Shown here: in pieces, positions 15,263-21,304 of the stretch | Layout: each line of letters starts with the position of its first letter | Numbering within the stretch: the first letter of the stretch is position 1 | Source of the DNA: a virus | Direction: 5' to 3' (one strand) | Virus record (IMG/VR): IMGVR_UViG_3300045999_009214 | Coordinates: 1-31,789 of that record | DNA: 31,789 nt | Notes under the pieces: generated by a model | Database searches by the model: none | What the model saw: the letters and a program-made list of their open reading frames with translations, nothing else | What the model was told of the DNA's origin: nothing | Made by a program: the position numbers and the translations under genes

Positions 15263-15634
15263 ATGGCCGCCACTCCTACCCCAGCTTCTCCAATGAGGGC
15301 AATTGATCGCTTGCGTAAGGCTTCAAACTTTGAGCCAATCAAACAAGTTGTTGAGCTTGTTGATGGCAGCGAGTTTGTATTTTATGCCACACCTTTGACC
15401 GCATCTGAACGCGAGAAGGCGCAAAAAGATGCAAAGTCTGACAACGCAAACGACTTTGCAATGCAGCTTCTGATCGCCAAAGCCCTCGACGAGAATGGTG
15501 AGCGACTTTTCAAGTCTGGAGACGCCGCTGTTCTGCGCAGGGAGGTTGAAGATGAAGACGTGCAAAAACTAATTCTTTGCGTCCTTCGCCCTCGTGGCTC
15601 GGAGGATGTAGAGCCCGACTCCAAAAGCGATTGA
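15263..15634 (+). CDS. Tail assembly chaperone, short form (gpG-like)
   Basis: The product is 123 residues, acidic at the end (PRGSEDVEPDSKSD). Segments VVELVDGSEFVFYATPLTAS and DAKSDNANDFAMQLLIAKALDE are typical of phage tail chaperones, which coat the tape measure before the tube forms. Position just before the tape measure gene is diagnostic for the G/GT system. A second frame without a good start begins inside its 3-prime end and carries the T-type extension, implying programmed frameshifting near codon 121. Confidence 0.8.
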   Translation: MAATPTPASPMRAIDRLRKASNFEPIKQVVELVDGSEFVFYATPLTASEREKAQKDAKSDNANDFAMQLLIAKALDENGERLFKSGDAAVLRREVEDEDVQKLILCVLRPRGSEDVEPDSKSD

Positions 15635-15824
15635 GCAAGAGCTAGAGTCTGACAACAGACTTTACTTCCAACTTTCTCTCGCGGAAGCCTTGCATTGCAC
15701 TTTGTTTGAACTTAAAAACAAAGTGACAGATGAGGAGCTTGCACTCTGGGCCGCTTACTTTTCTATCAAGAACAGGAGGCAAGAGAAAGAGATGGAGAAG
15801 ATCAAGCGTCAGGCTCGTCGTTAG
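15612..15824 (+). CDS. Tail chaperone extension (T part of G/GT), probably made by +1 frameshift
   Basis: This frame is open from 15612 to the TAG at 15822-15824, 70 codons, in the +1 frame relative to the short chaperone. After the likely crossover it reads AIEQELESDNRLYFQLSLAE, then LHCTLFELKNKVTDEELALW and AAYFSIKNRRQEKEMEKIKR. The phrase LAE-x-L-x-x-T-x-x-EL-x-x-x-x-x-x-EL-x-x-W-x-AY is the usual T-domain pattern. There is no ATG until near the end and no Shine-Dalgarno at its beginning, so independent translation is unlikely. In the longer product it would recruit the tail tube subunits. Confidence 0.75.
   Translation, partial: SPTPKAIEQELESDNRLYFQLSLAEALHCTLFELKNKVTDEELALWAAYFSIKNRRQEKEMEKIKRQARR
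15620..15634 (+). other. Putative +1 ribosomal frameshift site
   Basis: The short-form frame reads TCC AAA AGC GAT TGA. A tRNA-Lys on AAA (15623-15625) can re-pair perfectly on AAA at 15624-15626 after slipping +1, followed by GCG ATT GAG in the T frame. The T frame has a stop at 15609-15611 and the short frame stops at 15632-15634, so any shift must fall in this narrow window. A -2 shift gives the same frame but with poor re-pairing. Confidence 0.5.
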
Positions 15825-15846
15825 CCGCCTCTCGGGGCGGCTTTTT
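15823..15846 (+). terminator. Hairpin terminator between chaperone and tape measure genes
   Basis: AGCCGCC (15823-15829), a six-base loop, GGCGGCT (15836-15842), then TTTTT at 15842-15846. The left arm overlaps the chaperone stop codon. Partial termination would lower tape measure expression relative to the chaperones. Confidence 0.8.
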
Positions 15847-15886
15847 CGTATTTGGCTAGACTCAAGGGACATAGCGACTTGTTGAC

Positions 15887-18800
15887 GTGGCAAGCTACGA
15901 GGCGGTTATCAACCTTGTGGTTCAGGGTGAGGCTGCGCTTAATCGTATTCAGAAGAAAATTGATAATTTATACAAAACCGTAGGGGATCTTGAGACAAAG
16001 AAAAAGTTTCAAGGATCACAGGCTGCTGCTTCTTTTGTTAGAGAGCAGGCAAATGAGCTCGAAAGAGTTGTATCTGTTTCAAAGCAGCAAATCAAGGAGC
16101 AGGAGCGCAGCATTGTCAAGCAGAGCAAGCTCAATGCCGCTGTTGATTTATACGAAAGAAGACAGAGACAGCTCTCTCGCACAAGTGTAGCCAATCAAAA
16201 ACAATTTGCTGATCAAATCAGAGACATAGAGGAAGGATTTAAGTTTTTCAAAGATAGAAAAAGCGCTACAGGTGTTCAGGCAATTGCTACCGAGCTTGGA
16301 AGGATTATTGAATATGACAATGAAATAAATAGAATCTCTGAGCGTAGAACAGCTAATCAGCGTAGGCTTTTTGCTTTTAGCAAAGAGATCGCAAGATATG
16401 AAGCCTTTGGACTTAAGACTGATCGAGCAAGGAAGACTCTTTCTAGTTTTGAGGAAGTAGCCGGCGGTAATCAATTAAAAAAAGCACAGCAGTATGAAGC
16501 CGCACTCAGGAATCAGTTAAAGCTACTCAAAGATCAGCTAGTTGAGCAACAAAGAGTTGCAAAAATTGCACCAAGTTCGCCGATCCTTGGTGGAGTAAAT
16601 TTCCCTGGTAGTCCTAAAGCAGTTGCGGCTCAGCAAAGGGCGCAAGAGATTGCACTTCGCCAAGCCCAACGAGGATTCCCGGCATCGCCAATTGGCGGTG
16701 CTGTAACAATGATTGGGAGTCCAAAATTTCTTGCGGCTCAAGAAAGGGCGAGGTCTGCTGCAGAGCGGGCTCTACGCGCACAAGAAAAATCAGCGAAAGC
16801 CGCTGAGAACGCTGCAAATAAAGAAGCCGACAGAATTCTCAAGGAATCGCAAAAAGGATTTCCTTCTTCGCCGATCATGGGCGCTGTCTCCATGGCGGGC
16901 AGTCCTAGAGCCATTGCGGCTCAGGAGCGAAATCGCGCTGCGGCAGAAAAGCGCGCTGCTGTTCAGCGCAGAGCTGAAGAGCGTGCAGCGAAGGTTCAGC
17001 AGCAAGTTGCTGTCGCAGCAGAAAGAGCGGCAGAAAAAGCTCTAAAAGAAGCGCAGAAGGGATTCCCTTCGTCTCCAATTCTTGGAAGTGCAACAGTAGA
17101 GGGTAGCCCAAGGTGGAGAACCGCGCAGGAATCTGCTAGGCAAAAGCTTGAAAGTGCAGCAAAAGCTGCAGAGCGAGCAGCGGATAGAGCCTTGAAAGAA
17201 GCGCAGAAAGGATTCCCGTCGTCGCCAATTCTTGGCACTGCCACAATGACTGGCAGCCCAAAATGGAAGGCTGCGCAAGAGAAACTTGCAAGAGCTGCTG
17301 CTGGCGGAGGAGTTGCAGGCTCTGGCCTTGAGCAAGCACTTCAAGGGCTGCAAGAGGCTCGCGGGGCGCGTCAGTCTTTCCTTGGTGGTGTGTCTCCCGC
17401 GCAGGCGATTGATCAAATCGTGCGCGAGTTCAGAAAGGGTCAACCAGCAGTAGGTAATGTAGCGCAAAACATTGGAGATACATTTGCAACAAGCCTTAAG
17501 AAAGGTGCATCCGAAGCAGCGACGTCGGCAAGATCTTTTGCGACTGCTGCAGCCCAAGCAATCAAAAATGTGTTTGGCATCGCCAGCCCATCTCGTTTCA
17601 TGATCGAGTTGGTACAGAATCTAGTGAATACATATATCGCAGAAATGCAGAAATCCTATCCAAGGATTCAGGCGGCTACAGATAAAGCTTTTGGCGAGCA
17701 AACTTTGCTCAGAAGCGTAAAAGAGCTTCGTGCGACCGGCAGGGGTTTTGAATTCGCCGAGCGTCCATCGCGTGGATTCCGACCATTCCGCGAAGCTCAG
17801 GGTTTTGGGCGCGGCACCGAGGGCGCCACGCAAGAGTTCAACAACATGATGCTGGACTTCAGAAAGCAAATAGCTGAACTGACAACTCAACCAGAAATTT
17901 TTAGCAATCTCTTGAGAGGTCTTCCCGATGCTCGCATTACGACTGATTTGATTGGTGCGGCGAATCGTCGCGCACTTGCGTCCGAACTTCCGTCCTTTAT
18001 GCCCACGCAAAGGATGATGGGGCCTGGGGAGCTTGAAAAAGCAATTACAAATGCTTTTTCCAAGTTTGTTCGTGAGCTGAGAGTTCCCACTTCTGAGAGG
18101 ATTAGAGCGGAGAGATTTGCTGGGCCAAAGCTATTGACGCCCGCAGTAGAAATTATTACGCCATCACAGCAAGAAAGAATTGCTAGGGCTTACGAGCGTT
18201 CCGCGCAGAGAGCGCTTTCTGTTCTTGCCGAAGATGCTTTTAGGGGTGCTGGACGCCCTGCTATTTCTGCCGCAAACTTTGGGTTTATGGCAGATCCGGC
18301 TCGTATTAGTCGCCTTTCTGGCATTGGGCGTGCATTGCCGCCGGCGATTGACGTTGCATCCAGTGCTGTTGACGGAGAAAGCAGGGACTTGCGTGAATCT
18401 ATTCGCAATCTTTTTGATCGAATAAATCAAGGCATTCAGTCTGCGTTTAGCGGCTTTGGCGGATTCGGTGGTGGCAGTCGCAGTGACGGCGGCGGTGCCG
18501 CTAACGGCGGCGGCGGTCGTGGTGGAGCCCCGAATCAAGTTGCTCAACTGCTTGGTTTTGATGCAATCGGTGACATTTCTCGTGTTTCTACTCGTGAACT
18601 CGAAGCGCTTTCTGCTGCGGCCTCCGAGCTTCGCGCTGTTCTTGATCCAACAATTGAGGGCTTTGATCGTCTTGACAATCAATTGCGCGAAACAATTGGG
18701 CAGATTGGCCGTCAAATTGAGCGTCGCGCCCCTGAGGCTGATTTCCTGACTCGCCGATTTGGCCCTAGGGGCGGTCGGGCAGTCAGCGAAGGCTTGATTG

Positions 18801-21304
18801 GTGGCGCCTTCCCGCTGCTGTTTGGACAAGGCGTTGGAGCTGCTGCTGGCGGTGGCCTGGGTGGCGCTCTGGGCGGCTTTGCTGGTGGCGGACTGGGGTT
18901 TGGCTTGTCGCTGGCTGGCACTGCGCTAGGTACGGCGTTTGACACTCTTAATCAAGCAGCACAGGATACTGGCAAGGCACTCAGGTATCCAATTGAAGGA
19001 TTTGAAAAGCTAAAAGAAGCTGGCTTGCTTGCTGGCCGTGAGCAGGAATATTATATTTCCAAATTAATAGAAGCTGGAAGAGCTACAGAGGCGGCCGGCA
19101 TTATTCAGGCTGAAATTATCAAGAAAATAGGAGTGCGTGGAGTTGAAGATCTCCAGCGCCTTGGTGATTCTTCTTCTCGTCTCAGCAAAGCTTGGGCAGA
19201 ATTTACTCTGCAACTTCAGGCTGCGCTTGCCGGCCCAATGGCTGGCTTGTTGAATTGGCTAGCCAACACTATATCTGTAATCAATAATCGCACAAGGGAA
19301 GTGGCAAGACAGAGCGATATTACTTCCGGCCTTTCGCCAAACGACCTAAAGTCGCTTCAGGCTGAAGAACAAAGAATACTTTCAGGCGCAAATATTTTCA
19401 ATGAAGCTGCAAAGAGGCAGCAGGTATCTCAGCTTTATAGTCAATTTGAATCTAGAGCAAATATTAACGCTTCGACTACGCGACTCACCCCAGAGCAGCT
19501 TGACGCCCAAAAGAAAGCTGAAGGTGCAACAAAAGAACTGCAGGCCCAGGTCGAGCTTCAGTCAAAACAACTCTCGTTGACTGGACTGACACTTGAAAGA
19601 GATGAAGCTCGTTATGTAAATGCGGCAAAAGCTGTTGCAATTCAAGAGTATGACAATAAACTCCTTGAGATTAAAAATAGCTGGATTGGGCAAATTTTCA
19701 ACAAAGAGCAAAATCTTGCTAAAATTCGCAACGCGAATCTTCAGCTTGCAGCACAATTAAAACAGATCAATGAAGAAGTCGCTCGCCGACAAGAAGAAGT
19801 TTATCAAAACAGTCTTCAGGCCGAGATGGCTTTGTATCAAGAAGCTCAAAAGCAGTACGATCTAAATATTAAAATAACAGAATTCAATCAAGGAGAAATT
19901 GCAGCCTTAAAAGAAAGGCTGTCAAGAAATGAGCAAATAACCAATAGCAGGCTGGCTGAGTTTTACGTAGAAGAAGAGCTGGCAATGATTGCTGCTCGTA
20001 AAAATGGAACAGTTGAGCAGACCGCCAAGCTATACAGCCTTCGCCTTAAAACACTTCAGTCTGAGCTTGATCTAGAAAAAGGCGTAGCGCAGCAGAAAAT
20101 TGCTCAGTTGCAACTTGATAAATTAATTGCAATTGAAGAAGCAAAACGTCAGGCCGCCGACCCATTTGCACAATTCCGTCAATCTCAACAGCTTAATGAG
20201 CAGTTTACTAAAACATACTTCAGGCTCCTGAAAGAGGGAATTAAACCAGCGGAAGCTGAACGTCTTGCGAATTTTGAGCGTCTTGTTTCTGAGCAGCTTA
20301 GATCACTTGATATTCAAGTTGCAATAGCTCAATCCGTCTATGACGAAGCCGTTGCGCGTGGCATTCTTGGCAAAGAGCTGCAAAGCTATCTCGATAATCT
20401 TGAGAGAGCAAAAGCGGCTCGTGATTCAGCCGCCAAGGAAGCGGCCGGCGGCCCCGGTCCCGCATCCCAGGAAGTTCCAGGCGCAAAAATCCAAGAATTT
20501 ATTTCTACGGCAGAGGAAGAGCTGAAAGATCTTGAAGCTCTTGCTGTTCGCGTTTCTCAAGGTATTGGTGATGCAGTCGCAAATTCAATGGCCAACGGAA
20601 TCACTGGCTTGATTGAAGGCACAACTACAGCGAAAGAGGTATTTGCTGGATTTCTCAAAGATATGGGCAATATCTTGATTAAAGAAGGTACGCGCATGAT
20701 TGGCATGTACATCGCAATTGGCGTTGCAAAGATGTTTGCAGGATTGCTTAGTGGCGCAGGTGGCGCTAGCAAGCCAGCTCTACCTGGATCAATGGGGCAG
20801 GCAACAAAAACCGGACTTGATACCGGTGCCGGAAATATCTCAGATATGCTTAGTGGATTAGCCGCAAATGGCGCTTACTTCGCAAATGGAGTTTCAGCAT
20901 TTGCCAAAGGTGGAATGTTCACTAATTCAGTCGTTGCTTCGCCGACTCTCTTCAAGTTCGCCGATGGTGGCGTGCAGCGCACTGGGCTGATGGGCGAGGC
21001 CGGCCCGGAGGCAATCATGCCTTTGCGCCGCTCCGCCAATGGTCGCCTTGGGGTGGACGCAAACGGCCTGCGTGAAGCCATGGCGTCCGGTGGCAGCGGC
21101 TCCAGCGGTGCTTCCGTACTCAACATGAGCTTCCAGACCACCAGCATCGGTGGCGTCGAGTACGTGAGCCGCGAGCAACTTGAAGCCGCCATGGCCGCTA
21201 CGCGTCGTGATGCTGCACGTGATGGCGCAAAACGAGGCATGTCGATGACTCTCGATAAACTGCAACAAAGCCCAGGCACTCGTGGCCGCGTTGGACTCCG
21301 CTAA
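15887..21304 (+). CDS. Tail tape measure protein
   Basis: The product is 1805 residues from a GTG start, by far the longest gene. It sets tail length and passes into the host envelope on ejection. The N-terminal 220 residues are coiled coil. Residues about 227-465 hold five copies of a GFPSSPILG...GSP motif within Ala-rich helices. Near residue 563 is FGIASPSRFMIEL, a motif common in tape measures. Residues 969-1018 form a Gly/Ala-rich hydrophobic segment (GAFPLLFGQGVGAAAGGGLG), a probable membrane insert, and another hydrophobic stretch is near 1601-1627. Residues 1250-1550 are again coiled coil. The C-terminal motif FADGGVQRTGLMGEAGPEAI-MPLRR is a classic tape measure ending. At about 3 residues per 4.5 angstrom of helix this size suggests a very long tail. 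Confidence 0.95.
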   Translation: MASYEAVINLVVQGEAALNRIQKKIDNLYKTVGDLETKKKFQGSQAAASFVREQANELERVVSVSKQQIKEQERSIVKQSKLNAAVDLYERRQRQLSRTSVANQKQFADQIRDIEEGFKFFKDRKSATGVQAIATELGRIIEYDNEINRISERRTANQRRLFAFSKEIARYEAFGLKTDRARKTLSSFEEVAGGNQLKKAQQYEAALRNQLKLLKDQLVEQQRVAKIAPSSPILGGVNFPGSPKAVAAQQRAQEIALRQAQRGFPASPIGGAVTMIGSPKFLAAQERARSAAERALRAQEKSAKAAENAANKEADRILKESQKGFPSSPIMGAVSMAGSPRAIAAQERNRAAAEKRAAVQRRAEERAAKVQQQVAVAAERAAEKALKEAQKGFPSSPILGSATVEGSPRWRTAQESARQKLESAAKAAERAADRALKEAQKGFPSSPILGTATMTGSPKWKAAQEKLARAAAGGGVAGSGLEQALQGLQEARGARQSFLGGVSPAQAIDQIVREFRKGQPAVGNVAQNIGDTFATSLKKGASEAATSARSFATAAAQAIKNVFGIASPSRFMIELVQNLVNTYIAEMQKSYPRIQAATDKAFGEQTLLRSVKELRATGRGFEFAERPSRGFRPFREAQGFGRGTEGATQEFNNMMLDFRKQIAELTTQPEIFSNLLRGLPDARITTDLIGAANRRALASELPSFMPTQRMMGPGELEKAITNAFSKFVRELRVPTSERIRAERFAGPKLLTPAVEIITPSQQERIARAYERSAQRALSVLAEDAFRGAGRPAISAANFGFMADPARISRLSGIGRALPPAIDVASSAVDGESRDLRESIRNLFDRINQGIQSAFSGFGGFGGGSRSDGGGAANGGGGRGGAPNQVAQLLGFDAIGDISRVSTRELEALSAAASELRAVLDPTIEGFDRLDNQLRETIGQIGRQIERRAPEADFLTRRFGPRGGRAVSEGLIGGAFPLLFGQGVGAAAGGGLGGALGGFAGGGLGFGLSLAGTALGTAFDTLNQAAQDTGKALRYPIEGFEKLKEAGLLAGREQEYYISKLIEAGRATEAAGIIQAEIIKKIGVRGVEDLQRLGDSSSRLSKAWAEFTLQLQAALAGPMAGLLNWLANTISVINNRTREVARQSDITSGLSPNDLKSLQAEEQRILSGANIFNEAAKRQQVSQLYSQFESRANINASTTRLTPEQLDAQKKAEGATKELQAQVELQSKQLSLTGLTLERDEARYVNAAKAVAIQEYDNKLLEIKNSWIGQIFNKEQNLAKIRNANLQLAAQLKQINEEVARRQEEVYQNSLQAEMALYQEAQKQYDLNIKITEFNQGEIAALKERLSRNEQITNSRLAEFYVEEELAMIAARKNGTVEQTAKLYSLRLKTLQSELDLEKGVAQQKIAQLQLDKLIAIEEAKRQAADPFAQFRQSQQLNEQFTKTYFRLLKEGIKPAEAERLANFERLVSEQLRSLDIQVAIAQSVYDEAVARGILGKELQSYLDNLERAKAARDSAAKEAAGGPGPASQEVPGAKIQEFISTAEEELKDLEALAVRVSQGIGDAVANSMANGITGLIEGTTTAKEVFAGFLKDMGNILIKEGTRMIGMYIAIGVAKMFAGLLSGAGGASKPALPGSMGQATKTGLDTGAGNISDMLSGLAANGAYFANGVSAFAKGGMFTNSVVASPTLFKFADGGVQRTGLMGEAGPEAIMPLRRSANGRLGVDANGLREAMASGGSGSSGASVLNMSFQTTSIGGVEYVSREQLEAAMAATRRDAARDGAKRGMSMTLDKLQQSPGTRGRVGLR
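16565..17281 (+). repeat. Five divergent repeats inside the tape measure gene
   Basis: The encoded motif GFP-S/A-SPI-x-G-x-x-x-x-x-GSP-x-x-x-AAQE occurs at residues 227-250 (first three positions degenerate), 263-286, 324-347, 392-415 and 442-465. Spacings are 36, 61, 68 and 50 residues. Copies 4 and 5 share nearly identical DNA (GCGCAGAA-GGATTCCC...), which points to recent duplication. Confidence 0.8.

Follow-up and report, generated by a model that had tools for sequence, protein, structure and literature searches.

The tail assembly chaperone locus described here very likely encodes a G/GT pair whose long form is made by a programmed +1 frameshift at AAA_AGC. Comparison of its relatives furthermore leads us to favour, with distinctly less confidence, a broader reading. 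AAA_AGY would be a minimal +1 signal that needs neither a stop codon nor RNA structure and that serves a large group of aquatic siphoviruses. Within this one chaperone family the shift would have reversed its direction, +1 or -1, five times or more, partly because shift site and T travel as one recombining module, sometimes together with an HNH homing-type endonuclease.

The stretch of DNA that was analysed, hereafter the window, is the IMG/VR virus record IMGVR_UViG_3300045999_009214 (31,789 nucleotides, 31.8 kb). It carries siphovirus genes including those for a terminase, a Gp13-like capsid protein, a tail terminator and a tape measure protein, and is from a virus of bacteria; the sequences nearest to its terminase belong to marine picocyanobacterial siphophages, e.g. 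KBS-S-2A and S-H1. G has the tail terminator and structural genes on one side and the tape measure gene, the usual partner of a G/GT pair, immediately downstream of G/T on the other. The features of the locus are:

15263..15634, + strand: G, short form of the tail assembly chaperone, zero frame, 123 aa, stop TGA at 15632-15634.
15612..15824, + strand: T frame, C-terminal domain of the predicted long form, stop TAG at 15822-15824, decoded from 15627 after the shift.
15612..15634, + strand: G/T overlap to which the frame change is confined, with a T-frame TAG (15609-15611) just 5' and the G-frame TGA at its 3' end.
15623..15628, + strand: proposed shift site AAA_AGC, P-site Lys codon AAA moving to the +1 AAA (15624-15626), next codon GCG (Ala).
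15601..15606, + strand: Shine-Dalgarno-like GGAGGA, 16 nt 5' of AAA, not convincing as a stimulator.
15643..15664, + strand: local hairpin 3' of the site (fold of the window genome, z about -2.5), not kept in the clade.
15823..15847, + strand: terminator-like hairpin and T run between T and the tape measure gene.
15887..21304, + strand: tape measure protein, 1805 aa, matching PHROGs 32885, 1716, 6747 and 339 (tail length tape measure protein).

T lies at +1 relative to G (15263 mod 3 = 2; 15612 mod 3 = 0), and the two share exactly 23 bases, which include TCC AAA AGC GAT TGA in the G frame and AGC CCG ACT CCA AAA GCG in the T frame. A reading-frame check confirmed the coordinates, the 23-base overlap and the junction SK-AIEQ given in the original prediction, which had been made from the DNA letters alone. 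A hairpin similar to the terminator-like one at 15823-15847 was observed at the same place in the relative L266. In the N-terminal part of the tape measure protein a GFPSSPILG-like motif occurs several times (window 16600-17300); Tandem Repeats Finder does not list it.

G matched PHROG 344 (tail assembly chaperone, E 7e-5) and phrog_20784 (E 3e-24), families that were also hit by 18 and 24, respectively, of 24 aligned relatives. The best PDB match in a Foldseek search with its AlphaFold model, which is only moderately confident (pLDDT 69), was the HK97 tail assembly chaperone 2OB9 (E 1.7e-3, probability 1.00), followed by YqbN 3KLU (E 0.14). A match to Pfam Phage_TAC_13 was seen in one relative only (E 0.0044). 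Judged by family and predicted fold, G is a tail assembly chaperone. T gave weak matches to tail proteins (PHROG 337, E 4e-4; PHROG 14766, E 9e-4) and was conserved in 52 loci when used alone as a query. Substitutions in T at codon positions 3, 1 and 2 numbered 279, 101 and 49 across twelve relatives, a pattern indicating that T is under protein-coding (purifying) selection. A short product, a predicted long product and a T in another frame overlapping the end of G together give the locus, as read from its sequence, the organisation of a G/GT pair.

Relatives were collected by IMG/VR scans with G, T and G alignments, and phage records were added. Among the 340 loci with both parts, T lies at +1 in 183, at -1 in 157 and in frame in none. 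The site of the 145 distinct +1 genes reads AAAAGC in 135, AAAAGT in nine and AAAAGA in one, so that the A-site codon is AGY in 144 of them and AGA in one. As counts per locus are not independent, counts of representatives and counts based on trees are safer; the 45 +1 representatives below 86% identity have AAAAGC in 38, AAAAGT in six and AAAAGA in one. The +1 relation and AAAAG[C/T/A] reach relatives of only ~38% G identity, and nowhere else in the clade alignment are five consecutive columns invariant as they are at AAAAG. In nearly all members, whether +1 or -1, the shift-site Lys occupies one and the same alignment position, and the fusion junctions of both kinds stand in the same register (K-A-L/K-x-L). 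The genome collection contributed a single relative, a Gammaproteobacteria MAG contig with the -1 arrangement.

The invariance of AAA is seen at the level of nucleotides. An AAG codon at the +1 site would alter neither protein, and -1 cousins do tolerate AAG, which argues that the bias towards AAA reflects nucleotide-level selection. Elsewhere in the same +1 genes AAA makes up 63% of Lys codons, a usage at which 45 AAA out of 45 representatives would have p about 8e-10 if they were independent. Furthermore, a T-frame stop lies directly 5' of AAA in 110 of 137 +1 genes and the G stop directly 3' of AGY in 66 of the 137, and these abutting stops pin the event to AAA_AGY. The shortest overlap, 8 nt (L090-L092, AG-345-A17), leaves only AAA_AGY. 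In L061/L063, L043 and L045 the G stop comes 5-8 codons further on and the site is kept, showing that the shift does not depend on a stop codon in or beside the A site.

We propose that the peptidyl-tRNA-Lys would stand on AAA (15623-15625) while the Ser codon AGC waits in the A site. AGY may be decoded slowly, an idea carried over from yeast Ty3 (GCG_AGU). Occasionally the ribosome would move one base forward and the Lys tRNA would re-pair perfectly with AAA (15624-15626); this P-site pairing, AAA to AAA at +1, is offered by every +1 member. GCG would then be read as Ala (GCN, or GTN, in relatives) and T read through, giving ...DSK-AIEQEL... and a predicted GT of 186 aa. Most ribosomes would reach TGA and release G of 123 aa. 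If assembly follows the lambda scheme, the tape measure protein would be coated by G, and GT would bring in the tail tube protein.

Other routes into T fit the comparative data poorly. A -2 slip, as reportedly occurs in phage Mu, would lead to the same final frame with a different peptide, and frame arithmetic alone does not distinguish it from +1. It would, however, place tRNA-Lys on TGA, TAA or CCA, or tRNA-Ser on AAA, and neither pairing is acceptable, be it in the window or in the relatives with overlaps of 8-11 nt. As a -2 slip would also leave the invariance of AAA unexplained, we regard it as highly improbable.

It is just as doubtful that T has a translation start of its own, be it at an internal codon or through ribosomes re-initiating past the G stop. 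The close overlap of G and T does resemble that of coupled genes, and the T frame contains an ATT at 15630. However, T of the window has no ATG, GTG or TTG until a TTG 58 nt past the G stop, inside the conserved core, and in 137 relatives the first possible start is not conserved and mostly lies 10-30 codons inside T. With a T-frame stop immediately before AAA there is no upstream start either, and separate translation gives no reason for AAA_AGY to be invariant.

If the ribosome slipped only at the following codon, with AGC in the P site and the stop or next codon in the A site, this would suit the 66 of 137 genes in which the G stop directly follows AGY. The other 71 have a sense codon there, tRNA-Ser(GCU) would face a mismatch with the middle base of GCN, and AAA would not need to be invariant, all of which makes such a slip very unlikely too. 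Least probable of all is a frame change by RNA polymerase slippage or assembly error; an A run is present at the site, but at four bases (at most five) it is too short for transcript slippage, published cases of which are quoted at >7, and well over a hundred independent contigs, along with the single-cell virus AG-345-A17, show the same frame difference.

The programmed +1 frameshift in the G/GT pair thus remains the preferred reading, and the original prediction of it is supported by the 183 loci, or 145 distinct genes, at +1. Re-pairing of tRNA-Lys had been placed at A-AAA-G, and the comparative data pick the same tetranucleotide plus the next AGY codon; the alignment of relatives that had been suggested as a check has AAAAG in 145 of 145 distinct +1 genes. 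The +1 position of T, seen in the window as in each of the 183 +1 loci, agrees with the statement that no -1 heptamer gives the right frame, and the choice between +1 and -2, initially left open, falls to +1 as -2 has no workable re-pairing. Three findings had been named that would speak against the prediction. An internal T start has no conserved counterpart in relatives, a sequencing error does not account for a frame difference found in well over a hundred independent assemblies, and a junction elsewhere is excluded in relatives with an 8-11 nt overlap around AAA_AGC.

No conserved stimulator was recognised around the +1 site. RNAalifold returned no consensus structure downstream of the site in the clade of the window, and the mean downstream-fold z was -0.34 in 45 +1 representatives vs -1.92 in 18 -1 representatives (Mann-Whitney p 5e-4, relatedness uncorrected). 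With z near zero across +1 lineages, downstream RNA structure was rejected as a conserved +1 stimulator. An upstream RNA structure as in yeast ABP140 was not found at the +1 site, nor was a phage-carried tRNA gene. A Shine-Dalgarno-like element 14-23 nt upstream occurs in some lineages only and was likewise rejected; it is mostly explained by acidic codons, exceeds the synonymous expectation mainly in the AG-345-A17 clade and not in most lineages, and the spacing of GGAGGA is wrong for known +1 stimulation. In the best model AAA_AGY would require neither a nearby stop nor a conserved structure. As a separate observation, L100 and its relatives L182-L261 show synonymous conservation of GAG GCT AAA GCC 7-18 nt upstream of the shift site (GCT in 76 and GCC in 76 of 82), a possible clade-specific upstream element.

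In the other genes of the window neither avoidance nor toxicity of AAA_AGY was found, with eight in-frame copies where about 5.8 are expected. The hexamer alone can thus not be strongly shifty. The slip is probably rare, which would suit the G/GT ratio of about 30:1 in lambda (PMC5009743). The efficiency may be at the few-percent level that G/GT pairs usually show; otherwise the shift must depend on a context element that has escaped recognition.

The -1 relatives have C_CCA_AAA, C_CCA_AAG, A_AAA_AAC or A_AAA_AAA in 118 of 131 distinct genes, and many have strong downstream stems. Twelve distinct -1 genes (L262, L288, L289, L292-L294 and others) lack a canonical heptamer under the scan used, and those inspected read GAC CCC AAG AAC. 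In KBS-S-2A (L097), S-H1 (L263), MED4-184 (L099), HTVC202P (L101) and HTVC026P (L264) T lies at -1 relative to the annotated G; no joined G-T feature is annotated in any of these five, and in KBS-S-2A T is wholly unannotated.

On the G tree, which was built without the divergent HTVC202P and MED4-184 rows (these gave long-branch artefacts), well-supported branches force at least five changes of direction, and parsimony counts seven. A single origin of +1 on this tree was rejected (AU p 0.0007, AG-345-A17 clade left out). Three changes suffice on the T tree, which is what joint travel of T and the shift site would predict. Placement of the T of L265 within the -1 T group was weakly rejected (p 0.018), and joint placement of the T of L265 and L284 there was not rejected (p 0.18).

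One pair of relatives appears to record such an exchange. L265 and L266 share 95.5% identity across the 799 nt that end just short of the site; there L266 reads GAC CCA AAG CCC TAG (-1) and L265 reads ATG AAA AGT (+1). L265 continues with a T of higher AT content and, in antisense orientation, an HNH endonuclease gene (PHROG 374, E 8e-61), followed by 43 nt that are identical to L266 and comprise the last original T codons and the terminator. The segment that would have been replaced is:

L265:1828-2736, compare L266:800-1033: -1 site and T apparently replaced by a +1 site, another T and the antisense HNH gene.

L265 is a single contig, seen twice (L151, L265), and L284 is arranged similarly. 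The same type of endonuclease directly follows T in six of 134 +1 loci vs none of 125 -1 loci, with L008, L014, L019, L138 and L284 among the relatives concerned. These counts are only suggestive; one way to switch direction may be co-conversion alongside a homing-type endonuclease.

Frameshifts of +1 are already known from phage tail genes. Lambda G/GT resembles the window in its position before the tape measure gene, its short G and long GT, and a frameshift near the end of G, whereas it shifts -1 at G_GGA_AAG and the window +1 at a single P-site Lys codon followed by AGY, without a heptamer. KBS-S-2A and other close homologues share with the window homologous G and T, the Lys at the shift site and the junction register, but shift in the opposite direction, -1 at A_AAA_AAC or C_CCA_AAR. 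Strong stems downstream of the site (z about -5 to -6 in the KBS-S-2A group) occur in several -1 homologues but not in the +1 members. The chaperone of the haloarchaeal myovirus HSTV-2 is described as very likely using +1 (PMC5009743); it too would be a +1 case in a tail assembly chaperone gene, although with an archaeal host. In their tail tube genes, Listeria PSA and Bacillus SPP1 shift +1 at a CCC that precedes a stop (PMC5009743, PMC6316719). These are phage +1 slips with P-site re-pairing as well, but in other genes, on a Pro codon and with a stop in the A site, where the window has a Lys codon and a sense codon.

Yeast Ty3 (GCG_AGU_U) and Ty1 (CUU_AGG_C) have an A-site sense codon starting with AG, thought slow to decode (PMC5009743). 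The window shares this feature with these eukaryotic elements, and its re-pairing is perfect whereas Ty3 shifts without P-site re-pairing. PRFect includes a motif 'four' for forward frameshifts, with 350 forward cases in SEA-PHAGES (PMC10885494). There too a run of four identical bases is the proposed +1 slip site of chaperone genes, but as a generic motif; the accessible part of that paper does not describe the AAA_AGY signature, its conservation or switches of direction. Our literature search, outside of which lay many subscription papers including Xu et al. 2004, found no earlier report of a chaperone shift at AAA_AGC, nor of repeated switches of direction within one chaperone family.

Signals for +1 frameshifting in bacteria and phages are few and varied. 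Tools for annotation and prediction that expect -1 heptamers will overlook the T domain, as exemplified by KBS-S-2A. A conserved, structure-free site in more than 100 natural variants would offer a clean system for studying forward movement of the ribosome, and the homologous +1/-1 gene pairs, some of which are near-identical up to the site (L265/L266), represent natural swap experiments.
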